Of a DNA stretch of 64,000 nt, positions 15,165-48,051 are shown piece by piece; positions within the stretch are counted from its first letter, which is position 1, and every line of letters begins with the position of its first letter. The DNA lies in assembly GCA_900696495.1 (NCBI GenBank), contig CAADGI010000012.1, positions 62,001 to 126,000 of the forward strand, in the 5' to 3' direction. The notes below the pieces were generated by a model. It did not search any database and was not told where the DNA came from. It saw only the letters and a program-made list of their open reading frames with translations. The stretch comes from an uncultured Alphaproteobacteria bacterium (GTDB lineage: Bacteria > Pseudomonadota > Alphaproteobacteria > Micavibrionales > Micavibrionaceae). The position numbers and the translations under genes were made by a program.

Positions 15165-15853
15165 GGGACAAACTCCTTCGGCCCGCCGGATGCGTTGGTG
15201 AGGATGAGTTTTGCCGGACCGTTAAAAATCAGGCGCCCGTTTTCGGACTGGCCCTCGAGGCCTTTGGCTTGAAGCGTGCCATCGGGGCCGCTGCCGGCGA
15301 CGTCGACTTTCGAGAGCGCTGTGTTCTGCATGAGGTCGATGTCGAGTTCCTCGGTTTCGAGGCGGTAGCCCTTGTCGTGGTCGAGCCGGACCTTGCCGCG
15401 CAGGAGGAGAATTTTGCTGTCCTGGCGGAAGCTGCCGCGGTCGGCGCGGACGGCGATTTTCTCGCCGCTGTTGAGCTTCATGTCGCCGAGCGGTTCATCG
15501 AGCATGACGAGCTGTTCGTCGCTTTTGTTCTGGACGGCGCGCTTGGCGGTGATGGTAAAGGGCTGGTTGTCCTCGTCGACGCTTTCGAAGCGGGGATTTA
15601 CAAGTTCATTTTGCCCGATGACGGTCGGCATCTTGGCGGCGTCGATGGAAGGAAGGATGTTGTTGCGCTGGACGTCGCTCCAGACGAAGACGACGGCGAA
15701 GAGCGCGAGCGCGATGACCGGCAGGATGAGGCGCATGCGGCGCACGAAGCGCGACCATTTCGGATTGTGGTGATCGCGGGAATCGCCGCGTACGAGGCGG
15801 TCGTATTTTCCGGCGCGTAATGAATTTTCCGGGTTTTCAGGATCGTCGTTCAT
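15161..15853 (-). CDS. lptC: LPS export system protein LptC
   Basis: 230 residues. One membrane helix (about 41-60, MRLILPVIALALFAVVFVWS) anchors a periplasmic beta-jellyroll (about 75-205) that receives LPS from LptBFG and passes it to LptA. The segment NPRFESVDEDNQPFTITAKR is typical of the family. It has about 30 more N-terminal cytosolic residues than E. coli LptC, as in other alphaproteobacteria. It starts 10 bases after kdsD ends, and its stop overlaps the lptA start. Confidence 0.92.
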   Translation of the reverse strand: MNDDPENPENSLRAGKYDRLVRGDSRDHHNPKWSRFVRRMRLILPVIALALFAVVFVWSDVQRNNILPSIDAAKMPTVIGQNELVNPRFESVDEDNQPFTITAKRAVQNKSDEQLVMLDEPLGDMKLNSGEKIAVRADRGSFRQDSKILLLRGKVRLDHDKGYRLETEELDIDLMQNTALSKVDVAGSGPDGTLQAKGLEGQSENGRLIFNGPAKLILTNASGGPKEFVP

Positions 15854-36242: not shown

Positions 36243-36986
36243 ATGACAAGAAATAATCTCGCAACAATCCTGCTGGTCGCTGGCACCAGCCTCGTTCTCA
36301 GCGCATGTTCGACAAACAGCGAATACCGCGAAGGTTCGCTCAGCGATCCGTTCGAAAACTCCAACCGCACAATTTTCGCCTTTAACAAGGCCGTCGATAA
36401 AGCCGTCATTCACCCTGTCGTGAAGGGTTACCGTTTCATCGTGCCCGAGCCGGGCCGCAAGGGCCTGCGCAATTTTCTGCGCAACCTGAAATCTCCCGTG
36501 ACCTTGGCCAACGAAGTCCTGCAGGGCGATGTTGACGGCGCGGGCAAGGTTGTCCTGCGCGCCGTCGTGAACACGCTGGTTGGCGTGGGTGGTCTGTTCG
36601 ACGTTGCAGGCCGTGAAGGCTATGAATACGAGCAGGAAGATTTCGGCCAGACTCTGGGCGCCTGGGGCGTAGGTCACGGCCCGTACCTGGTCCTGCCGAT
36701 CCTGGGTCCGTCTTCGGCCCGCGATTATGCTGGTTATATTGTCGATTCATTCGCAGACCCGCTGCGCTGGTACCTGTTCAATATCGATGAAGAGGGCTGG
36801 TACTATGCGAAAGTCGGCGTTGAATATCTTGACCTCCGTGAATCGCTGGTTGATGTGCTCGAGGAGCTTGAGCGAAGCTCGATCGATTACTATGCCGCGG
36901 TCCGCAGCACCTACTATCAGCGCCGCGAGGCCCTGGTACGGGACCAGATGGCGACAGCCGACGGCGGCGAGGCCGATCACCCCTAA
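36243..36986 (+). CDS. mlaA: outer-membrane lipid asymmetry lipoprotein MlaA (VacJ)
   Basis: A 247-residue lipoprotein with signal peptide and lipobox LSAC (acyl Cys22). It removes misplaced phospholipids from the outer leaflet and passes them to MlaC. DPFENSNRTIFAFNKAVDKA and FDVAGREGYEYEQEDFGQTLG, then GVGHGPYLVLPILGPSSARD are the family signatures. The tail after about 210 is charged and variable. mlaC follows after a GC-rich hairpin. Confidence 0.96.
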   Translation: MTRNNLATILLVAGTSLVLSACSTNSEYREGSLSDPFENSNRTIFAFNKAVDKAVIHPVVKGYRFIVPEPGRKGLRNFLRNLKSPVTLANEVLQGDVDGAGKVVLRAVVNTLVGVGGLFDVAGREGYEYEQEDFGQTLGAWGVGHGPYLVLPILGPSSARDYAGYIVDSFADPLRWYLFNIDEEGWYYAKVGVEYLDLRESLVDVLEELERSSIDYYAAVRSTYYQRREALVRDQMATADGGEADHP

Positions 36987-37027: not shown

Positions 37028-37112
37028 AGGGTCGGTATTGATAAATCCGTATAAAGTATATATAGAACAGGCATTCTTGGAAGGAATGTTCCTGCATTTA
37101 AAGAGGTTTAAC

Positions 37113-37745
37113 GTGCGCCATATCAATCTGATCGCTTTTTCCGTTGCCGCCCTGACGGGCGTATCCGTCGCCGCGCCTGCCTTGGCCATGGATTTGCGCG
37201 AGACGCCGCGCAGCTCGCTGACTGTGACAGTCGCCGCCGACACGGAAGCCGCAAAAAGCTTCATCGATAAAATGGCGCAGACCGGTATCGGTTTCCTCGG
37301 CAATGAAAACCTGACCGACGAACAGCGCACGGCGGAATTCCGCAAGCTGCTGAATGCGAATTTCGACATGGCGACGATCGGCCGTTTTGCCCTCGGCCGT
37401 TACTGGAAAACGGCGACGCCCGCCCAGCAGGCCGAGTACCAGAAGCTGTTCAAAAACATGATCGTGAAAATCTATTCACGCCGCTTCAAGGAATATAACG
37501 GCCAGAAGCTGGAAATCACCGGCGCCCGCGCCGACGGCGATGCGGACGTCATCGTTTCGTCCTCGATCATTCCGCCGAACGGCCAGAAAGTTTCCGTCGA
37601 CTGGCGCGTGCGCCATAACAAGGTGGTCGATATCCTGGTCGAAGGCGTGAGCATGGCGCTGACGCAGCGCTCCGATTTCGCATCGGTCATCCAGCGCGGC
37701 GGCGGCAACGTTGATGTGCTGCTCGAGCATCTGCGCGCGCAATAA
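37113..37745 (+). CDS. mlaC: periplasmic phospholipid-binding protein MlaC
   Basis: A 210-residue carrier that shuttles phospholipid between MlaA and the inner-membrane MlaFEDB complex. The signal peptide reads VRHINLIAFSVAALTGVSVA with cleavage near PALA-MD. Family features include FRKLLNANFDMATIGRFALG, then RYW, and VDWRVRHNKVVDILVEGVSM. GTG at 37113 has AGAGG at the right distance; an ATG at 37086 abuts its own AAGGA too closely. No mlaF, E, D or B gene is in the window. Confidence 0.92.
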   Translation: MRHINLIAFSVAALTGVSVAAPALAMDLRETPRSSLTVTVAADTEAAKSFIDKMAQTGIGFLGNENLTDEQRTAEFRKLLNANFDMATIGRFALGRYWKTATPAQQAEYQKLFKNMIVKIYSRRFKEYNGQKLEITGARADGDADVIVSSSIIPPNGQKVSVDWRVRHNKVVDILVEGVSMALTQRSDFASVIQRGGGNVDVLLEHLRAQ

Positions 37746-37764: not shown

Positions 37765-40488
37765 TTATCTACCGCCCGTGCCCATAAGCGCGGCAAGCTT
37801 GCTGGCGTCCTTGGTGAAGCCGAGGCCGATATTGCCGCCCTTGAAGACTTTATCGATGAGCTGGCCGGCGGGGTCGCCCGCGGCTTCGCTGAAGGTCGAG
37901 ACCGAGACGCCCATCCAGCGCAGGATGTTATTCGGCACCTGATCGATCAGCTTGAAGAAACCCGTGGCCATCATATACACCATGATCGCGTACATCATGG
38001 TGAAGAAAAATTTGTCGATGGGCAGGCGGTAATATTGAATTGAAGACGGGCCGATGCCCTTGAACTCGGCCTCCATGTCGTAGCCGGAGACGTTCGCAAC
38101 GACGAGGGTGAATACGTCGTTCAGCACGCGCACGCAGGCGGCGAAAATGGTCAGGCTGGCGACAAGCCCGAATACGATCAGGATCGGCCGCAGGAAAATT
38201 TCAAGCAGCAGGAAGTAGCCGTTGTTGGCGGCGGGGCCGGGCATGCCCTGGCCGTCCATGCGGCTGATATGCGCGAGCGCCCAGAGTGGCATCGCCACAA
38301 CCGCCTCGAAGATGCTTTTGATCCAGCCGCTGAGGGCGAACATGAAATAGATGAAGGGCAGGAATGGCAGCACGTAATAGAGAATAAAGCTGATGATCAT
38401 CGTGAATTTTCCGACGCTCACAGCCATGTCGACAAGCGCCTTCAAAGTTTCGCTGTCGCCGCCCACGGCCTTTCCGAACAAGGCCGCCAGAGAATTTCCG
38501 GCCAGGCCCAGGCCTATGTTACGCACGGCCGCATCCATCAGACCTTTTCCGAGGACGCTGAGCTGGGCGAGGGGGTGTATGTTCGTGTTTTCCCGCATCG
38601 CGAATACGCCCTCGGTGCCGAAAATCATATTGACCACGTCATTGAAGGTGTTGCTCGAAGGTTCGCTCTGCAGTTTTGCGGCGTTGCCGGTTCGGTCCCA
38701 GAACGTATAGGCGTTGTAGAGAACGGCGGCGATCATTTTATCCTTGTACCTGGGATAGTCCGATTCCTTTCTGCCGCCGAGAGCAGGATCGTAAATATCT
38801 TCGGGGCCGATATTTTCGTTCCCCATTTTATTCTGCAGGGCGATGTACTCCATCAGGAACGGATATTTGTCGGGGAAGGGGGTGTTTCCAACCGCCGCGG
38901 TTATCTGGCCGTTTTGCTGCGCGATGCGGTTGTACCATATGGCGGCGCCTCCCCAGCCGGTCGCACGCAATTCAGGCGTAACGGCGAAATTGGTCGAAGC
39001 GGCTTCCTGGGCGACGGCGGCGGGAATCTGATTTTTAACGAAATTCGTCCATCTCTGGATTTCGTTGTTGGCGAAATTGGTGGTCGGCCAGGCGTTGCAG
39101 TTCGGTTCATGATCGATCTGCATGATCCGTCCGCGCACGCATGCAGCATTGACGACGAGTTGCGTATCGTCCCACATGGTCCTGACCAGTTCGTAATAAA
39201 TTTCCTGCATGGTCCAGGCGCCGGAATCGGGATTGATCGAGGTCACAGGCAAGTTGACCACGCCGCATACGGCTTTGACCGAGCCTTTTTCAAGCGGGTA
39301 TCTGTCCTCATTGCGAACGCCGAAGCGGATTTCAATGTTGCCGTAATCGTTGAAATCAAGAGCGCCGGCAAAATCCACCGTATCCAGAGGCAGGGCGTTC
39401 GGGCCGGGCAGATTTGCGCCGGTCAACGCATCGCGCACGAGATAGCCCTGGACCCCGTCCGGCGCGTGAAGCGTTTCGCCATAGGCGAATTCCTCGGCGA
39501 TCTTGCAGGTTTTGGCGACAAACATGAAACGCACAAGCGCGTTGATTTCGGGCGCGTTCGGCGTGGCGACCAGGGTTTCCTGGGGTCCCAGATAGGTTTC
39601 CGCAAGCGTAAGGTTAAAGCGCCCCCATGCATTGGTCGCAAAGTTCGAGCCGAATTTCGCCGTCCAGAAGGTGAGCATCTGCGCGGTGTTCATGCCGTAA
39701 TGCTGGTCGTCGACATTGACGGGAACGAGAAGCGCAAAAAAGATAATCAGGCGGACGGGCCCCCATGTCCTGTTGAACCGCTGGCCGAAGGGCGTGCCGT
39801 TCACGGCGGTTTCACCGATGATCGTCGTGACGAAGTAAAGGATCACGAGAACGCCCACCATGAAGATGCCGATGGAATAATAATGGAACAGCGTGTGCAA
39901 AGCCCTGTGCATGGGCCATGGATACGCGCCGCCATTGTTGCCGATCTGCTGGCCGTTTATGCCCATGCAGGGGAGCTGCAAAGATACGCAGGAGCCGTAA
40001 ATGCGTGAGCCGAGGCCGAATACGCGATCAAGAATTATAAAGGCGATATCCTGTTCGCCATTTCCGAGGTTACCTCCATGGCCGTATTCTGATTCTACGC
40101 CGAGAATGTTATTGAGGGTATTTACAACCGGCGCGACCCCCGCCATGGCCGGCGGCGCCATGACCGCCATGATAAGAAGGACCACCTGCAGGATCAGCAT
40201 GATGACGCCCGCAAGGATCGCGAAAAAAACGATGATCTGGTCGATGTTGCGCCGGGTGAAGACGAGATTGTTGGCGGCTTCGGCGATGACATGCCTGATG
40301 CCGTAGCGGCCGATGTTGGCGGGATTCAGATAGGCGTGACCGTTGGGCAGCAGGCGAACCGAGTGATAGACGATGGCTATCGTGTAGGCGACATGCATGA
40401 AGCCGGTGGTAAAAAACGCATGCAGCCGCGGCAGAAAGCCCGGCAGGAGCGTGTATTTCAGTACCTTTCCTGCGCTGAGCGTTGCCAT
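37765..40488 (-). CDS. DotA/TraY-family polytopic protein, third gene of the trio
   Basis: A 907-residue inner-membrane protein. N-terminal helices lie near 30-50 and 88-112, another pair near 205-262, a large extracytoplasmic region runs from about 270 to 680 with several Cys, and about four helices lie near 690-880. Shared trio motifs include NIGRYGIRHVIAEAANNLVF, then TPFGQRFNRTWGPVR, and MPLWALAHISRMDGQG. DotA (Legionella) and TraY (IncI plasmids) are inner-membrane components of type IVB secretion. Its ATG directly follows the previous gene's stop (TAAATG), so the two are coupled. No other Dot/Icm gene is visible, so secretion is inferred only. Confidence 0.85.
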   Translation of the reverse strand: MATLSAGKVLKYTLLPGFLPRLHAFFTTGFMHVAYTIAIVYHSVRLLPNGHAYLNPANIGRYGIRHVIAEAANNLVFTRRNIDQIIVFFAILAGVIMLILQVVLLIMAVMAPPAMAGVAPVVNTLNNILGVESEYGHGGNLGNGEQDIAFIILDRVFGLGSRIYGSCVSLQLPCMGINGQQIGNNGGAYPWPMHRALHTLFHYYSIGIFMVGVLVILYFVTTIIGETAVNGTPFGQRFNRTWGPVRLIIFFALLVPVNVDDQHYGMNTAQMLTFWTAKFGSNFATNAWGRFNLTLAETYLGPQETLVATPNAPEINALVRFMFVAKTCKIAEEFAYGETLHAPDGVQGYLVRDALTGANLPGPNALPLDTVDFAGALDFNDYGNIEIRFGVRNEDRYPLEKGSVKAVCGVVNLPVTSINPDSGAWTMQEIYYELVRTMWDDTQLVVNAACVRGRIMQIDHEPNCNAWPTTNFANNEIQRWTNFVKNQIPAAVAQEAASTNFAVTPELRATGWGGAAIWYNRIAQQNGQITAAVGNTPFPDKYPFLMEYIALQNKMGNENIGPEDIYDPALGGRKESDYPRYKDKMIAAVLYNAYTFWDRTGNAAKLQSEPSSNTFNDVVNMIFGTEGVFAMRENTNIHPLAQLSVLGKGLMDAAVRNIGLGLAGNSLAALFGKAVGGDSETLKALVDMAVSVGKFTMIISFILYYVLPFLPFIYFMFALSGWIKSIFEAVVAMPLWALAHISRMDGQGMPGPAANNGYFLLLEIFLRPILIVFGLVASLTIFAACVRVLNDVFTLVVANVSGYDMEAEFKGIGPSSIQYYRLPIDKFFFTMMYAIMVYMMATGFFKLIDQVPNNILRWMGVSVSTFSEAAGDPAGQLIDKVFKGGNIGLGFTKDASKLAALMGTGGR

Positions 40489-43287
40489 TTATCCACCGCC
40501 GCCGCCGCTGCCACCGCCACCTCTGGCTATTTTTTCCGTTATATCTTTCATCTGGCCGCCGAGAGCCTGTGTCGCCTGGCCTGCGCCGACGGTGCTGGTG
40601 CTGACCATGCTTTCGGCCGCATTTTCGCGGGCGTCGTTTTCGGTCGCGACGCTCTGGCCCATCCAGCGCAGGATGTTCGCCGGAATCAGGTCGATGAGCT
40701 TGAATGACGACAGGGCCATCATGTAGACGATGATCGCGTAAATCGCCGTGAAGAACAGTTCATCGACGGCCGAACGGAAATACTGGCCCATCGAGGCGCC
40801 TATGCCTTTCATTTCGCTGGGGACATCGAAGCCCGACAGGTTGGAAACCACCAGATCCCATGTCTGGTTCAGGGCGAAGACCATCGCAGCGAAGGTCGAA
40901 ATGCTGGCCAGCAGGCCGAAGATGATCAGGATGGGGCGCAGGAATATTTCAAAGATGAGGAAATAGCCGTTTACCGCCGCCGCGCCCGCCAGGCCGTTGC
41001 CGTCAATGCGGATGTGCGCGAGCGCCCAGAGCGGCGCGCCGATCATGGCTTCGAATATCGCCTTCAGCCAGTCGCCGACCGCGAAGAAGAAATAAATGAA
41101 GGGCAGGAAAGGCACGATGTAATAAAGGACGAAACCCATCGTCAGGATAGCCATGCTTACTGAAATCAGGAAACTGGTGAGCGCGGCGGCGCCGGCGCGG
41201 CTGTTGTTGCTCAGCGCCGGGGTGATCACCGCGCCGCCGCCCGCGAGGAACAGATCGAGCGCGGCGCTTTCGACGAGAGAGCGCCCGAGACCGACCAGTT
41301 GCGCAAGCGGGTGGATGTCCGGATTCTTGCGCATGCTGTAGAGGCCGCCCGTGCCGAAAATCAGGTTGATTGTATCCATCACGATGTTGCCGGTCGGTTC
41401 GGTATGCGATGTTGTCGCAAAACCGCCTCGTTGCCAGTAGTTATAGGATTCCCACATAGCCGCCGTAAAAGGTAGTGTATAGGGCTCGCGCGGCGTGACG
41501 GGCCTGCCATCGGCCATCTGCGGGTTAAAGCGGTCATTCACCGGCACGTGCTGGTCATTCTGGCGTTTTTTCTCATACACATATTCCATCAGGCTCGGCC
41601 AGCGCGATACCGAGGGGATTGCGCCCACCGCTTCGGTCAGCGAACCATTGATTTCGGCGACCTTGTTGTACCACATACCCGCACCGGCCCAGCCTTTTGC
41701 AAGAAGCTGCGGCGTGATCAGCCACGTCGCGGATTCGACCTGCGCCCGTATGGCGCCGCCGCCGCCGCCCAGCACACCGGCCAGACCGTTTCCGCCGTTG
41801 GTCAAAGCCGCCTCGACGTCGCTGCGGTAAAAATCCTGTATCCGGCTTCGGAATGTGTTTTCGGGCAGCTTCCCATCGGGCGGGCATGCGCCGCCGGCGC
41901 GTTTGCACTGGACGTGTTTGAGTGCGGTGAAAGAGGCATAGTTTTCCGCCACTAAAAACCTTCCGGTATAAACCGTCTGCCAGAGTTCCTGGACAATGTA
42001 AATATAATAGCGCTGCATCATCTCGGTGCCGGGTTCCGCCATGCCGGGCGGGCGCGGGTCGCTCAGCGGGATGATGAGCTCGCCGCAGATCGGCGAGACA
42101 TAACCCTTGTTGAGCGTGGATCTGTCCTCGACGCCGAAGCGGATAACGAGATCCTGGTCGCCGCGGAGAAAAGTCATAACCTGCTGATAGCTGGCCCGTA
42201 TGCCGCTGCCGGGCGGCCCGCCGTCCAATGATGCGGGCCAATCGGCGACGAGGAGATTGGGCGGGTTGCTCAGCGGATCGCGGACGGCATAGGCGCGGAT
42301 GTGTTTCTGGTTTTGCAGCCATTCAAGCCAGGCGCAGACCGAAGCCGAGTACATGAATTGCAAAACGCCGTGAATTTCGGGAACGTTCGGCTGGGAGACC
42401 AGGTTTCTGGTTTGGCCGATATAGGTCTCGGTAAGGCCCTGGTTGAAAAGAATCCAGCCGTTGGTGGCGAAACCCGAGCCGAACTTCGCGGCGTACAAAA
42501 CGATATATTGCGAAGAGTTCAGGCCATAGCCGATCGGGATCAGAAGGCCGAAGGCGACCACAATACGTATGGGCGCCCAGAGCCTGTTGAAGCGTTTGCC
42601 GAAAGGCGTGCCGCTTTGCGCCGTCTCCATCACGATGGTGCTGATGAAGTAGGAGGTGATCAATGTGGCAACGACGAGCAAGCCGATGCTGTAGAGGCGG
42701 AACATTTCATGCAGCGCGTCATGAATGGCATAAGGCCAGCTTGGCTGGATGAAAATCGACTGGCCGGCCATATCGACGATTCCGCCGCCATAAGCGTCAA
42801 GGCATGTTCCCTGCGCGTTGACGCAGGAGTTAAACAGGTTCGGCACGCCGAAAACAAGATCAAGCATGATCATGGCGATGTCCTGCCCGGGGTTCTGCGT
42901 GACGAAGAACCCGGCGAAATTGGTCGGCATGGGCGCCCCGGCCAGCACGGGCTGGAACATAAGGGACGCGGCCAGCAGGAAAACCTGGAGGAAGACAAGA
43001 ATCATGCCGACAAGGACCGCGCCAAACATAACGATCTGGTCCATATTCCTGGTTTTAAGCACCAGGTGATTGGCGGCTTCGGCGATGACGTGGCGAATTC
43101 CAAAGCGCCCTATGTTGGCTGAGTCGAGATAAGGGTGCCCGGCCGGAAGCAAGCGCACCGTGCTGTAGACAAGCGCGATAAAGAACGGGATGTAGTGGAA
43201 GCCCGAGAAAAAAAGGTCCTGCAGCCGGGGACGAAGGCCCGGCAGAACCGCATATCGGATAAATTCTTTTCTCGTTACATTCAACAT
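40489..43287 (-). CDS. DotA/TraY-family polytopic protein, second gene of the trio
   Basis: A 932-residue paralog of its neighbours with the same topology. Conserved motifs: NIGRFGIRHVIAEAANHLVL near residue 57, TPFGKRFNRLWAPIR near 230, SSQYIVLYAAKFGSGFATNG near 260, GWAGAGMWYNKVAEINGSL near 560, and MIGAPLWALAHIRIDGNGL near 760. The extracytoplasmic region contains paired Cys (NSCVNAQGTC and ICGELI) likely to be oxidised. The C-terminus is a Gly/Ser stretch (ARGGGGSGGGGG). It starts 31 bases after the first gene. Confidence 0.85.
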   Translation of the reverse strand: MLNVTRKEFIRYAVLPGLRPRLQDLFFSGFHYIPFFIALVYSTVRLLPAGHPYLDSANIGRFGIRHVIAEAANHLVLKTRNMDQIVMFGAVLVGMILVFLQVFLLAASLMFQPVLAGAPMPTNFAGFFVTQNPGQDIAMIMLDLVFGVPNLFNSCVNAQGTCLDAYGGGIVDMAGQSIFIQPSWPYAIHDALHEMFRLYSIGLLVVATLITSYFISTIVMETAQSGTPFGKRFNRLWAPIRIVVAFGLLIPIGYGLNSSQYIVLYAAKFGSGFATNGWILFNQGLTETYIGQTRNLVSQPNVPEIHGVLQFMYSASVCAWLEWLQNQKHIRAYAVRDPLSNPPNLLVADWPASLDGGPPGSGIRASYQQVMTFLRGDQDLVIRFGVEDRSTLNKGYVSPICGELIIPLSDPRPPGMAEPGTEMMQRYYIYIVQELWQTVYTGRFLVAENYASFTALKHVQCKRAGGACPPDGKLPENTFRSRIQDFYRSDVEAALTNGGNGLAGVLGGGGGAIRAQVESATWLITPQLLAKGWAGAGMWYNKVAEINGSLTEAVGAIPSVSRWPSLMEYVYEKKRQNDQHVPVNDRFNPQMADGRPVTPREPYTLPFTAAMWESYNYWQRGGFATTSHTEPTGNIVMDTINLIFGTGGLYSMRKNPDIHPLAQLVGLGRSLVESAALDLFLAGGGAVITPALSNNSRAGAAALTSFLISVSMAILTMGFVLYYIVPFLPFIYFFFAVGDWLKAIFEAMIGAPLWALAHIRIDGNGLAGAAAVNGYFLIFEIFLRPILIIFGLLASISTFAAMVFALNQTWDLVVSNLSGFDVPSEMKGIGASMGQYFRSAVDELFFTAIYAIIVYMMALSSFKLIDLIPANILRWMGQSVATENDARENAAESMVSTSTVGAGQATQALGGQMKDITEKIARGGGGSGGGGG

Positions 43288-43318
43288 CAGCAGGCCTGTT
43301 TATAATCTCCTATTATTT

Positions 43319-46159
43319 CTATTGTCCGGGGTTATTGCCACCCTGTGCTCTTTGCCTGAGCGAAGCCATGGCTTTTTCGAGATCGCCGCCGAAGCCCGCG
43401 GCGACATCCCGGAGCCCGGTGGTCGTCGTCTGCGCCATATGCATGCCGCCGTAAGCCGCATATTTGGTGAGGCCTTCGGTCGGGTCGGGGTTGATATCGG
43501 AGAAGGCCGACACGCCGGCGCCCATGTAGCGCAGAATCTGGTCGGGAATCTTGTCGATCAGTTTGAACGAAGCCGTCGCCATCATGTAGACGATGATCGC
43601 ATAAACGACCGTGTAGAAAAATTCGTCGATCTTGTTCTGCGGCAGAACCTTGTAGATGTAACCGGGGTAATTGACTTTCTGCTGCGCGCCCGGCCCGGTT
43701 TCGGTCCAGCCTTCGAAGCCTGTCAGGCTGCTGGTGACGAGTTCCCACAGAACGTTCAGCATGCGCACCTGCGCCGTGAAAATAAGAACCGCGGCGACCA
43801 GGCCGAATACCGTCAAAATCGGGCGGACAAAAATTTCAAAAATCAGGAAGTAGCCGCTCGATGCGGAATCGCCGGGCAGGCCCTCGCCGTCGATGCGCAG
43901 GTGCGCCAGCGCCCAGAGCGGCGCGCCGACCATCGCTTCGAAAATACTCTTGATCCAGGTTCCGAACGCGAAGAAAAAATAGAGGAACGGCAGGAACGGC
44001 AGAACATAGAAAAGAATGAAACCGATGGTCATCGCCAGCATCGCGATCGTCATCATCATGCCGCTGGCGTATGAGGCCAGCGGGCCTGTGTGGCTGTCGA
44101 GCAGGCGCAGAAGACCGCCGGCGCCGGCCGTGATGGTGGAGCCGCCGATATTGATGATGGCGCTGTCGACCAGCGACCTGCCCACGGCCGCGAGCTGGGC
44201 GAGCGGGTGAATGTGGGCGTTATCACCACGCATTTCCATGAGGCCGCTCATGCCGAAGATCGCGCCGATAACGTCATTGATGACAGAGCCGCTCACGGTT
44301 TTGCTGGCCTTCTCCATGTCGGGATCGTCTTTGTTCCACCAGTTGAAGAAGTCGTTCATCAATTTTGCGATTTCAAGGCAGTTGGCCGGGCAGGCGAGCG
44401 TTACAGGCCGGCCTTCCGCGAGGTTGGGGTTGAACTGCATCTTGCCCGAGAGATCGGCGTCGGCTTTTTTCCGTTCCCGGCGGACCTGGTCCATCACGTC
44501 GGGATAGGTTTCGAAATAAGGCATGCTGGTGATCGAGGTGGCGAAAATGCCGTTGATCTCGGCGATCTTGTTGTACCAGATGCCGGCGCCGGCCCAGCCG
44601 CGGTTAAGAATCTGGACCTGCATCTCGATATCCTGGTTGTTGGTGTTGTAAACCATCCATGCCCAGTCTATTTCCGCTTCGAACTGCGGTTTGTAAACGC
44701 CGAGCAGGGTCTGGCGGCCTAGGGCGGTGACCTGCGTATCAATGCAAGTCAACGGCCCTATAGCGCAGATGGGAAGCGATCCATGTCCGCATCCGATGTC
44801 GCATTGCAGGTGCGGCGCTCTGTTAATAGCAAATTCCATGTAGCGGTGGGCGAGATCTACCATCAGCGTGCCGTCCGTGAACCACATGCTCTTGACCAGG
44901 TTGAAGTAAAATTCCTGAATCAGGTCGGCGCCGCCAACGCTTGCACCGCCTGCTCGCGGCCTCATATAGGTGATCGGAATGCGGATATCGCCGCAATATT
45001 TTCCGACCTGTCCTTTTTCCTTGTCGAAGTTGGTGTTGTTTGGATCATAACGGCCGAAACGGATGACGATGTCGCTGTTGTTGTAGAAATTCAGCGCGGC
45101 TTCATAGCTCGTTCCGGGTGTGAGTTCCATGCGCGGAAGGGGATTGGGCATCCAGTCCTGCGGCTGCTTGACCAGATAGGGCTTGATGTAAAAACCTCCC
45201 GCCGGCGGCGGGGCGCCCTGGTAGTTTGGATCAAGCTTCCAGTGGGCGTAGGCGCAGGCGTGAACGATGGACATGGCCTGGATGATCGGCATCAGGCTGG
45301 GGGCCTGCGGTTTGGCGAGCAGGCTTTCGCGCTCGCCGGTGGGGTTGAAGCCGGCGCCGATGCCGGCCTGCAGCGTGTCGTTGAACTGAAGCCAGCCGTT
45401 CGTCGCGAAGCCGGAGCCGAACTTCGCGGCGTAGAGAACGATGTACTGCCCGCTGTTGAGGCCGTAATTGATCGGCAGCAGAAGGCCGAGCGCGACGACA
45501 AGGCGGACAGGGACCCACGCGTTCTGAAAGCGCTGGCCGAAGGGATGACCGGTGGTGGCGGTCTCGCCGACGACAATCAGCACGTAGTAGAGGAAGATCA
45601 CAACGCCGACGATGAGCAGGCCGAGAGAATAGAATCTCAGCAGTTCATGGAAGGCTGTATGGAACGGCCACGGCAACTGGCCGTTGAACGGTGTGCATTG
45701 GCCACCCTCCGTACAGAAGAGGCGGGGAATTCCAAAAACCTGGTCAAGCACGACGAAGGACATGTCGGTGACGGGGCCCGCGCGCGGGTTGGGCGTCAGG
45801 AATATCGAGCCGGCGAAAGCGGGCTGGATCACGAAAATATAGATGACCATCGCCAGCTGGATCAGCAGGATGATGACGCCGGCCAACAGCGCGAAGAAAA
45901 TGAAAACCTGGTCGGCGTTTTGCCTCTTGAGCACGAGATTGTTGGCGGCTTCGCCGATGGCGTGGCGGATTCCGAAGCGGCCGATATTCGCAGGGTTGAG
46001 ATAAGGGTGGTTTGGCGGCAGAAGACGCACGGCGCCGTAGATGCTGGCCATTAAAAACGCGATATAGCCGAAACCGGACGCAAAAAGAACCTTGGCGCGC
46101 GGAATAATCCGCGGCAGCAACAAGATGCCAAGAATGTTCTTCGCTTTAACGCCGTTCAC
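43319..46159 (-). CDS. DotA/TraY-family polytopic protein, first gene of the trio
   Basis: A 946-residue paralog, probably the promoter-proximal gene of the operon. It starts with GTG at 46159 with GGTGG upstream; no better ATG is present. Motifs: NIGRFGIRHAIGEAANNLVL, then TPFGQRFQNAWVPVR-like (HPFGQRFQNAWVPVRLVV), SGQYIVLYAAKFGSGFATNG, GWAGAGIWYNKIAEINGIFA and MVGAPLWALAHLRIDGEGLP. The periplasmic part is rich in Cys (HLQCDIGCGHG, LACPANCLEI). The tail is Gln/Gly-rich. Length and topology are close to Legionella DotA (about 1050 residues). Confidence 0.85.
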   Translation of the reverse strand: MNGVKAKNILGILLLPRIIPRAKVLFASGFGYIAFLMASIYGAVRLLPPNHPYLNPANIGRFGIRHAIGEAANNLVLKRQNADQVFIFFALLAGVIILLIQLAMVIYIFVIQPAFAGSIFLTPNPRAGPVTDMSFVVLDQVFGIPRLFCTEGGQCTPFNGQLPWPFHTAFHELLRFYSLGLLIVGVVIFLYYVLIVVGETATTGHPFGQRFQNAWVPVRLVVALGLLLPINYGLNSGQYIVLYAAKFGSGFATNGWLQFNDTLQAGIGAGFNPTGERESLLAKPQAPSLMPIIQAMSIVHACAYAHWKLDPNYQGAPPPAGGFYIKPYLVKQPQDWMPNPLPRMELTPGTSYEAALNFYNNSDIVIRFGRYDPNNTNFDKEKGQVGKYCGDIRIPITYMRPRAGGASVGGADLIQEFYFNLVKSMWFTDGTLMVDLAHRYMEFAINRAPHLQCDIGCGHGSLPICAIGPLTCIDTQVTALGRQTLLGVYKPQFEAEIDWAWMVYNTNNQDIEMQVQILNRGWAGAGIWYNKIAEINGIFATSITSMPYFETYPDVMDQVRRERKKADADLSGKMQFNPNLAEGRPVTLACPANCLEIAKLMNDFFNWWNKDDPDMEKASKTVSGSVINDVIGAIFGMSGLMEMRGDNAHIHPLAQLAAVGRSLVDSAIINIGGSTITAGAGGLLRLLDSHTGPLASYASGMMMTIAMLAMTIGFILFYVLPFLPFLYFFFAFGTWIKSIFEAMVGAPLWALAHLRIDGEGLPGDSASSGYFLIFEIFVRPILTVFGLVAAVLIFTAQVRMLNVLWELVTSSLTGFEGWTETGPGAQQKVNYPGYIYKVLPQNKIDEFFYTVVYAIIVYMMATASFKLIDKIPDQILRYMGAGVSAFSDINPDPTEGLTKYAAYGGMHMAQTTTTGLRDVAAGFGGDLEKAMASLRQRAQGGNNPGQ

Positions 46160-46371: not shown

Positions 46372-48051
46372 TCAGCTTGCGCGTCTTAGCGGCTTATATT
46401 TGATGCGGTGGGGCTGATCGGCGGCGATGCCGAGGCGGCGCTTGCGGTCGGCCTCGTAATCCTCGTAATTGCCTTCGAACCACTCGACATGAGAGTCGCC
46501 TTCGAAAGCCAGGATGTGAGTGGCCAGGCGGTCGAGGAACCAGCGATCGTGGGAGATGATGACCGCGCAGCCGGGGAAATTCTCGATTGCTTCTTCCAGC
46601 GCCGAGAGTGTTTCGGTGTCGAGGTCGTTGGTCGGTTCATCGAGCAGGATGACGTTGGCCTCGGTCTTGAGCATTTTCGCGAGGTGGACGCGGTTGCGCT
46701 GGCCGCCGGAAAGATTGCCGACTTTTTGCTGCTGGTCGGGGCCGCGGAAATTGAACGCGGAGCAATAAGCGCGGGACGGCATTTCGATTTTACCAAGCTT
46801 GATGATGTCCTCGCCGTTGGAAATTTCCTGCCAGACATTGTTGTCGGGATTGAGGGAGTCGCGGCTCTGGTCGACATAGCCGAGCTTGACGGATTCGCCG
46901 ACGGTGAATGTGCCGCTGTCCGGTTTTTCGGCGCCGGTGATCATGCGGAAGAGCGTGGATTTACCCGCGCCGTTCGGGCCGATAACGCCGACCACGCCGC
47001 CCGGCGGCAGGCGGAAGGACAGGTTGTCGATAAGAAGATGATCGCCGTAACCTTTCGAAATGCCTTTCGCCTCGATGACATTTTCGCCGAGGCGGGGCGG
47101 GGCGGGGATGACGATCTGCGCGTTGCGCTGCGTGTTTTGCTGCGATTCCGCGAGGAGTTGATCGTAGGCGGCGATACGCGCCTTGGATTTTTTGCGGCGG
47201 CCTTCGGGCGTTTTGCCCATCCATTCCATTTCTCTTGCAAGAGTTTTCTGGCGCGCCGCTTCTTCCTTGGATTCCTGTTCGAGGCGTTTGGCTTTGGCTT
47301 TCAGGTAGGCGGAATAGTTGCCCTCATACGGGATTCCTTTGCCGCGGTCGAGTTCGAGAATCCATCCCGTCACATTGTCGAGGAAGTAGCGGTCGTGCGT
47401 GATCATCACGACGGTGCCCTTGTAATCGAGCAGGAAACGCTGGAGCCAGGCGACGGATTCCGCGTCGAGGTGGTTCGTCGGTTCGTCGAGCAGAAGAAGG
47501 TCGGGTTTTTCGAGCAGCAATTTGCAGAGCGCGACGCGGCGTTTTTCACCGCCGGAGAGATTATCGATCTTCGCGTCGCCCGGCGGGCAGCGCAGCGCGT
47601 CCATGGCGATTTCGATGGTGCGGTCGAGTTCCCAGCCATCGACGGCGTCGATTTTTGTCTGGAGCTCGCCCATTTCCTCGCCGAGTTTTTCGAAGTCGGC
47701 GTCGGGTTCGGCCATGGCGGCGCTGATCTCGTTGTAGCGGTCGACCATTTTCTTGATGTCGCCGAGACCCTCGAGCACGTTTTGGTGAACGGTCTTGGTT
47801 TTATCGAGCTGGGGCTCCTGTTCGAGGTAGCCGACGCGCACGCCTTCGGCGGCCCAGGCGTCGCCGGTGAATTCCTTGTCGCGGCCTGCCATGATGCGGA
47901 GGAGGGTCGATTTACCCGAGCCGTTGGGGCCGAGCACGCCGATCTTCACGCCGGGCAGGAAGCTCAGCGTGATATTTTCGAGCACTTTCTTGCCGTTGCC
48001 ATAGGCCTTGCCGAGGCCGTGCATGGTGAAAATATATTGATAGGCTGCCAT
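46372..48051 (-). CDS. ettA: energy-dependent translational throttle protein EttA (ABC-F)
   Basis: A 559-residue cytosolic ABC-F ATPase that binds the ribosomal E site and gates early elongation by ATP/ADP ratio. The two ABC cassettes have Walker A GPNGSGKSTLL and GPNGAGKSTLF, signatures LSGGEKRRVALCKLL and LSGGQRNRVHLAKML, and DEPTNHLDAESVAWL / DEPTNDLDTETLSAL. The linker (about 240-320, AKAKRLEQESKEEAARQKT onward) is the ribosome-contacting PtIM arm. The C-terminus ends RIKYKPLRRAS. A 212-base gap without a visible gene separates it from the DotA trio. Confidence 0.97.
   Translation of the reverse strand: MAAYQYIFTMHGLGKAYGNGKKVLENITLSFLPGVKIGVLGPNGSGKSTLLRIMAGRDKEFTGDAWAAEGVRVGYLEQEPQLDKTKTVHQNVLEGLGDIKKMVDRYNEISAAMAEPDADFEKLGEEMGELQTKIDAVDGWELDRTIEIAMDALRCPPGDAKIDNLSGGEKRRVALCKLLLEKPDLLLLDEPTNHLDAESVAWLQRFLLDYKGTVVMITHDRYFLDNVTGWILELDRGKGIPYEGNYSAYLKAKAKRLEQESKEEAARQKTLAREMEWMGKTPEGRRKKSKARIAAYDQLLAESQQNTQRNAQIVIPAPPRLGENVIEAKGISKGYGDHLLIDNLSFRLPPGGVVGVIGPNGAGKSTLFRMITGAEKPDSGTFTVGESVKLGYVDQSRDSLNPDNNVWQEISNGEDIIKLGKIEMPSRAYCSAFNFRGPDQQQKVGNLSGGQRNRVHLAKMLKTEANVILLDEPTNDLDTETLSALEEAIENFPGCAVIISHDRWFLDRLATHILAFEGDSHVEWFEGNYEDYEADRKRRLGIAADQPHRIKYKPLRRAS

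Follow-up and report, generated by a model that had tools for sequence, protein, structure and literature searches.

Why should a bacterium keep three full-length copies of dotA side by side, when one is usual? The question is raised by a 64,000-nucleotide stretch, referred to here as the window, from an uncultured Alphaproteobacteria bacterium of the Micavibrionaceae (assembly GCA_900696495.1, contig CAADGI010000012.1, positions 62,001 to 126,000). An earlier note, made from the letters of this DNA alone, had described three successive DotA/TraY genes, named here p1, p2 and p3 (Table 1), and their lengths were borne out by the open reading frames, as were the gaps of 31 bases between p1 and p2 and of 0 bases between p2 and p3. 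All three genes are co-directional, and the TAA stop codon of p2 is followed by the ATG of p3 without an intervening base. The family assignment held as well, since the proteins all exceed the subfamily-level cut-off of 100 bits of the profile TIGR04346 (DotA_TraY), with E-values of 1.8e-75, 5.9e-68 and 8.5e-65. Against the T4SS_DotA equivalog NF033886 they reach 119–167 bits, below its cut-off of 500; judged by these profiles, the trio is of the DotA/TraY family and not a Legionella-type DotA equivalog. Pfam-A returned no family for the three proteins up to an E-value of 1, and p1, the only query used, matched the Legionella DotA chain of PDB entry 9ngy with 1.5e-13 in phmmer. At an E-value of 0.01, five rows of DotA/TraY matches were obtained in the genome of the window, all within the three trio genes and none elsewhere. 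Close homologues of p2, with 88–89% identity, occur in the metagenome-assembled genomes Micavibrio sp. UBA7657 and Alphaproteobacteria bacterium Go_SlAct_bin_278, and a further one with 34% identity in another Micavibrio metagenome-assembled genome.

The three proteins share 37–40% pairwise identity and are alike in hydropathy, with membrane segments at the N- and C-terminal ends and a large middle part between them. The common motifs quoted in the earlier note are present in the trio, except that p3 departs from two of them (WTAKFGSNFATNAW; GWGGAAIWYNRIAQQNG). The proposal that different cysteine sets mark three specialised subunits fared less well: two cysteines are invariant in all copies longer than 800 residues that were compared (26/26, 24/24 and 24/24), and the remaining cysteines do vary, but they vary among positional orthologs too, which makes the argument weak.

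The copy number was followed in 38 genomes of the order Micavibrionales, which fall into families coded f1 to f7 and include that of the window (G000). A DotA/TraY gene is present in all 38. When pieces at contig ends are read as parts of one gene, each of the 25 genomes of family f1 has three dotA in conserved order, intact on one contig in 20 of them and pieced across contig ends in five (G014, G016, G018, G022 and G023; the third copy of G014 is a 236-residue piece), so that the same trio does recur in relatives. Outside f1 the remaining 13 genomes have a single dotA, seen in G034 and G027 as pieces only, except for G033, which has a tandem pair whose second gene is cut by the contig end (L064 9477–13268) and a piece on another contig. 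Separate single genes lacking the trio order, the arrangement that the earlier note had set against its own proposal, were therefore not met with inside f1, while they do occur in other families of the order. In 240 genomes of the class outside the order search the family was found in 13, three of which belong to f1; eight of the remaining ten have a single gene, G137 carries two that lie about 106 kb from each other, and in G256 (C14) two genes are adjacent. Among 398 genomes of the phylum it was found in 11, the ten besides that of the window having one match each in a search that scored at most two candidates per genome and would miss higher numbers. Within the genomes searched, the fixed dotA triplet was seen to be confined to f1. 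An apparent fusion of two dotA genes in G013, an open frame of 1876 residues, was rejected because stops lie between the genes. Redundant tandem duplicates, or an amplification for dosage without functional distinction, are a very improbable explanation of this pattern: the tandem pairs of G033 and G256 would suit it, as would the repeated homogenisation or re-duplication of p2 and p3 described below, but with a further f1 genome (G173) that also has three copies, the trio is kept in 26/26 f1 genomes despite wide divergence, the five pieced ones included, unlike what is expected of unselected redundancy.

The origin of the copies was addressed with two trees. The first has 103 rows, with the longest piece kept per copy and with the third G014 copy, second pieces of broken genes and the pieces of G027 and of G033 (the latter on another contig) left out; in it all 77 trio copies form one clade with a support of 100 in the Shimodaira–Hasegawa-like approximate likelihood ratio test (SH-aLRT), sister to the single genes of f2 and f7. 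The second has 63 rows, without the near-copies G001 and G002, the five contig-broken trios, the single genes of f3, f5 and f6, the second G033 copy and all outgroups, and supports the trio clade with 100/98. Because the trio is one clade and some single genes of sister families share its gene neighbourhood, the copies probably arose from one dotA by multiplication in place in the f1 ancestor. Inside the clade of the 63-row tree, p2 and p3 form a group (96/99) that holds all 19 p3 and 15 of 19 p2, with six p1 and p2 rows standing apart; the four other p2 (G004, G005, G019 and G020) group with two p1 (86/86). In the approximately unbiased (AU) test a single p1 clade is not rejected (0.2) and a single p2 clade is rejected (8e-5), and p2 and p3 cluster together in several sublineages, which would mean gene conversion or renewed duplication, each time ending at three genes. 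As far as the trees can be read, p1 split off early and p2 and p3 were repeatedly homogenised or re-duplicated, with the copy number still at three.

The position of p1 bears on a further possibility, namely that one copy forms the channel and the others are, for example, released, displayed to the target cell or active in regulating assembly; release of Legionella DotA is reported in a review (PMC12981334). The deep split between p1 and the p2/p3 group and the p1 clade that the AU test did not reject would agree with such a division, and p1 is the nearest of the trio to five single dotA of f2 and f7 in 19 of the 25 genomes whose three copies all entered the tree. The mean distances of the three copies from the single genes nevertheless barely differ (3.48, 3.59 and 3.69), and all three retain the conserved motifs, so that we consider this explanation improbable.

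The earlier note had also regarded the genes as a coupled set, and the spacing upheld this: in all 20 intact f1 trios they are co-directional, with intergene gaps of −26 to +167 bases. Scans for promoters and terminators gave no signal above that of shuffled sequences. The spacing is also the main argument against three interchangeable, homo-oligomeric gates in a shared Dot/Icm machine, each serving different substrates, targets or life-cycle stages. Such gates could be imagined from copies that are about 38% identical, similarly distant from the single dotA and in possession of the core motifs, so that each may work alone, and in trees built region by region the branches are longest for the middle part of the protein (median end branch 1.02 versus 0.42 and 0.73). 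Tight and co-directional genes, however, favour constant co-production over alternative use, and the copy number stays fixed at three while p2 and p3 turn over; separate gates are rather unlikely on balance.

We favour instead a trio that acts in one complex, because it is conserved, tightly spaced and constant in number despite the turnover of p2 and p3. DotA and IcmX are described as forming a pentameric central protochannel that opens into the trans-envelope channel (reviews PMC12857230 and PMC12981334), and because DotA is described as part of a pentameric channel gate, a gate of mixed subunits is the form of complex we prefer. A single dotA beside ettA and mla genes would have been multiplied in tandem in the family ancestor, and the three proteins would be co-translated and co-assemble at the base of a protochannel of the DotA-IcmX type, making the gate, which is pentameric in Legionella, one of mixed subunits. 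Within it p1 may have a role of its own, and p2 and p3 may form a tightly coupled pair. On contact with a prey or host cell, proteins are probably exported by the machine, which may serve in predation; the trio-bearing family includes a known predator of other bacteria. The combination of multiplication in place, a mixed-subunit DotA gate and protein export is in our view the best explanation as a whole, with a probability of roughly one half.

A gate needs a machine, and the earlier note had seen no other Dot/Icm gene beside the trio. For the window this is correct as far as the four families searched are concerned (DotH, DotI/IcmL, DotB and TraG-D_C), none of which was found there; for the genome it is not, as dotL and dotM are present, and the implied machine without further Dot/Icm genes did not survive the comparison, since a Dot/Icm core is present elsewhere in the genome of most relatives. 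DotH (PF12293) is above its cut-off in 33 of the 38 genomes, without a match in G000, G017, G018, G022 and G030, the stretch of G000 where synteny would place the cluster reading as N. A strong DotI (E-value 2.6e-51 or better) was found in 35/38, with weaker matches only in G000 and G017 and none in G030; that of G002, a congener, scores 205.4 bits against NF038072, above the cut-off of 175. DotB-like proteins reach 369–410 bits in 33/38 genomes and exceed the equivalog cut-off of 463.3 in 0/38, and the G002 protein scores higher with the DotB profile (389 bits) than with TraJ (245.6) or PilT (215).

The clearest arrangement is that of G002, in which dotI, dotH, dotG, a weak dotF, two DUF6750 genes, dotN and a 1002-residue protein in the place of dotO follow one another, an order (dotI-H-G-F-x-x-N-O) that we take to be that of the Legionella icm operon. 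Its DotG scores 179.6 bits against a cut-off of 750, with TrbI (PF03743) above cut-off and a match of 5.7e-25 to IcmE/DotG in the PDB; DotF reaches 24.7 bits (cut-off 200) and DotN 93.1 (cut-off 100), and the 1002-residue protein has a weak VirB4 match (E-value 0.0027) and no PDB match. The genes icmT, dotB, dotC and dotD lie about 12–17 kb from the dotI-H-G-F cluster. PF16932 (271.6 bits) and PF16816 (123.3 bits) are both above their cut-offs in G002, and NF033882 (DotD) is below its own (106.6 versus 140). Near dotB of this genome there are TcpQ-like and transglycosylase genes, and further on a DsbG-like gene. The DUF6750 genes, possibly IcmC/IcmD-like, seem to be multiplied or fused: G035 (L079) has three calls of 129 residues and one of 322 in the same cluster, and G002, with DUF6750 genes at L070 5394–7100 and 4939–5322, has a 568-residue protein. 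In G031, of a sister family, dotI, dotH, dotG, dotF and dotA are contiguous (locus L062) and the single dotA stands directly after dotF; the dotA lineage is therefore tied directly to icm genes.

The coupling genes are located away from the core cluster, and each of the 38 genomes has a TraG-D_C match. In the genome of the window this gene is dotL, with 3.3e-149 to IcmO/DotL (6sz9_A), and it is separated by a 182-residue gene from dotM, which matches IcmP/DotM (6sz9_B) with 2.8e-23; the NCBIfam scores for DotM (168, cut-off 230) and TrbC (395, cut-off 800) are both below cut-off. IcmL/DotI-like genes occur in the same genome away from dotL and dotM (C18:12581–13018 and C14:378431–378787; L132:8321–8914), and many relatives have weaker second IcmL-like matches. 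DotH, a strong DotB, the TraW-like family discussed below and a 20-kb region of the congener had no match in the genome of the window, where the stretch expected by synteny to hold the core cluster reads as N; a loss of the Dot/Icm core there was rejected as an inference, the absence being no evidence. Most likely, from the gene content and order of the relatives, the trio is part of a Dot/Icm system whose genes are dispersed over the chromosome and which most genomes of the order possess. The MOBP relaxase PF03432, the one relaxase family searched, was found in 8/38 genomes and not in the other 30, among them G024 and the readable part of G000, and this scarcity fits protein export better than conjugation.

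A candidate partner of DotA is a tandem family of proteins of about 370–630 residues, with starts that look by eye like signal peptides, which in many f1 loci is divergent from dotI. With the plasmid TraW profile, a member of this family in G024 ranks first among 661 gene calls (1.7e-7); NCBIfam TraW matches 1 of 23 members (1.9e-6), and hhalign of the family against the TraW profile gave P 9.6e-5 with a probability of 58.5%, and against a single TraW 4.7%. The family has no PDB match, a search of the PDB with the TraW profile did not retrieve IcmX, and tblastn of one distant member against plasmids gave no match. Presumably TraW corresponds to IcmX, a correspondence without sequence support here, and the TraW-like family is a candidate IcmX counterpart or TraW-like partner of DotA. 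The matches per genome, some of which are parts of one gene, number 2–6 in 24 f1 genomes and 4–6 in f3 and f5; one f2 genome has 2, three f7 genomes have 1 apiece, and G027, G029, G030, G033 and G000, the last with its expected core stretch reading as N, have none. A co-expansion of dotA and this family, suggested by the f1 loci, was not upheld across the order. One member in G012 (L134 9793–12984) has 1063 residues, twice the usual length. A Dot/Icm injector with a mixed three-DotA gate ring topped by several TraW/IcmX-like proteins, and possibly tuned for bacterial prey, is a tentative extension of the mixed-gate explanation, and we would sooner doubt than assert it in this full form.

The surroundings of the trio resemble those of a core chromosome. 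In the window it stands among housekeeping genes (ettA, mlaA-like, mlaC-like, lptF/lptG-like, ftsK and holC) and its G+C content equals that of the surroundings, for which reasons the locus looks like core chromosome and not like an island. The translational throttle gene ettA is not part of the secretion machine. Neighbours in other genomes were counted by homology in place of mechanical longest-ORF (open reading frame) gene calls. An EttA homologue (at least 45% identity) is encoded upstream in the same orientation in 17 of the 23 f1 loci that can be read on that side, within 600 bases in 14 and at 1.5–3.6 kb in 3; a MlaC-like gene lies at most 137 bases from p3 in 16 of the 23 f1 loci readable on the 3' side, adjoined in the same loci by the mlaA-like gene. 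The EttA homologue also stands upstream of the single dotA of G025, G030 and G035 and of the dotA pair of G033; the distance between a single dotA and the MlaC-like gene is 103 bases in G035 and 2.1 kb in G031. Across the 11 loci of the order outside f1, G035 thus has both ettA and mla, G025, G030 and G033 have ettA, G031 has mla genes 2–3 kb off, and both are absent beside dotA in six (G026, G028, G029, G032, G036 and G037). Upstream of ettA the window encodes a protein with a histone-deacetylase domain (PF00850; 48116–49138). An element that is at most about 95 bases long (L120 ~15726–15822) is dispersed over the genome, with at least 14 places on eight contigs, 40 of 116 candidates having been scored.

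Table 1. Genes of the dotA trio and its immediate neighbours in the window.
Feature	Coordinates	Strand	Product and start	Profile evidence	Position
dotA copy 1 (p1)	43319..46159	minus	946 aa, GTG start; DotA/TraY family	TIGR04346, 219.6 bits	
dotA copy 2 (p2)	40489..43287	minus	932 aa, ATG start	TIGR04346, 230.0 bits	
dotA copy 3 (p3)	37765..40488	minus	907 aa, ATG start	TIGR04346, 254.9 bits	
ettA	46372..48051	minus	ABC-F translational throttle	NF008775, 954.7 bits, above cut-off	upstream neighbour of dotA
MlaC/HpnM-like gene	37038..37745	plus		TIGR03481, 4.1e-29, and PRK15117 MlaC, 1.5e-16, both below cut-offs	convergent, at the 3' end of the trio
mlaA-like gene	36243..36986	plus		PRK15091 MlaA, 6.1e-42, below cut-off	beside the MlaC-like gene

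Several observations weigh against a mixed-subunit gate that arose by multiplication in place. Three kinds of subunit cannot share a pentamer equally, and the heteromer, while plausible, is argued from sequence and review descriptions. Because the AU test rejects a p2 clade, p2 and p3 do not appear to be two stable, anciently fixed subunit types. A single-chain AlphaFold2 model of p1, built with ten eligible sequences, was unusable, with a mean predicted local distance difference test score (pLDDT) of 40 and a predicted template modelling score (pTM) of 0.25; relatives that might deepen the p1 alignment were not found in a scan of viral contigs. As regards the machine, the assignments of DotA, DotB, DotF, DotG, DotL, DotM and DotN all score below the curated equivalog cut-offs, and the number of TraW-like genes does not track that of dotA, as the f3 and f5 genomes with 4–6 of them have one dotA. 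As regards the origin, 6 of 23 f1 loci have no ettA neighbour and 7 of 23 no mlaC neighbour, and the single dotA of f3, f5, f6 and one f7 genome are situated elsewhere.

How does the system compare with those already described? The earlier note had thought of a type IVB-derived machine that may not yet have been described in this lineage. The class of the machine is known, and PMC9418006 (2022) reports pT4SSi in passing for seven marine Micavibrionales, the same machine class in the same order. Of the dotA triplet no report was found within the literature searched. The titles and abstract beginnings on Micavibrio secretion, Micavibrionales and DotA paralogs contain no description of it; nor do the accessible portions of PMC10482364, PMC4451040, PMC7188933 and PMC9418006 mention it, the last being silent on both the copy number of dotA and a trio. 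In the genome paper of M. aeruginosavorus ARL-13, no type IV secretion system was reported. With conjugation of the IncI type (TraH-TraY, MPF_I) the Micavibrionales system shares the DotA/TraY family, a TraW-like protein and the common core; it differs in that plasmids almost always hold one traY (3909 places in 3889 matching records) and in that the MOBP relaxase is missing from most genomes of the order, as given above. There is close resemblance, too, to the Legionella Dot/Icm system: homologues of DotA, DotB, DotC, DotD, DotG, DotH, DotI, DotL, DotM, DotN and IcmT occur in the order, together with the weak DotF and, where DotO would stand, the 1002-residue protein that matches VirB4 weakly. 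Apart from the low equivalog scores, the differences are a DotG of 417 residues in G002 as opposed to 1048 in the PDB chain, the several TraW-like genes that many Micavibrionales genomes carry, and the three tandem dotA of f1 in place of the usual one. The opening of the type IVB gate is a subject of current inquiry, for which a lineage with three gate subunits provides a natural separation of functions.

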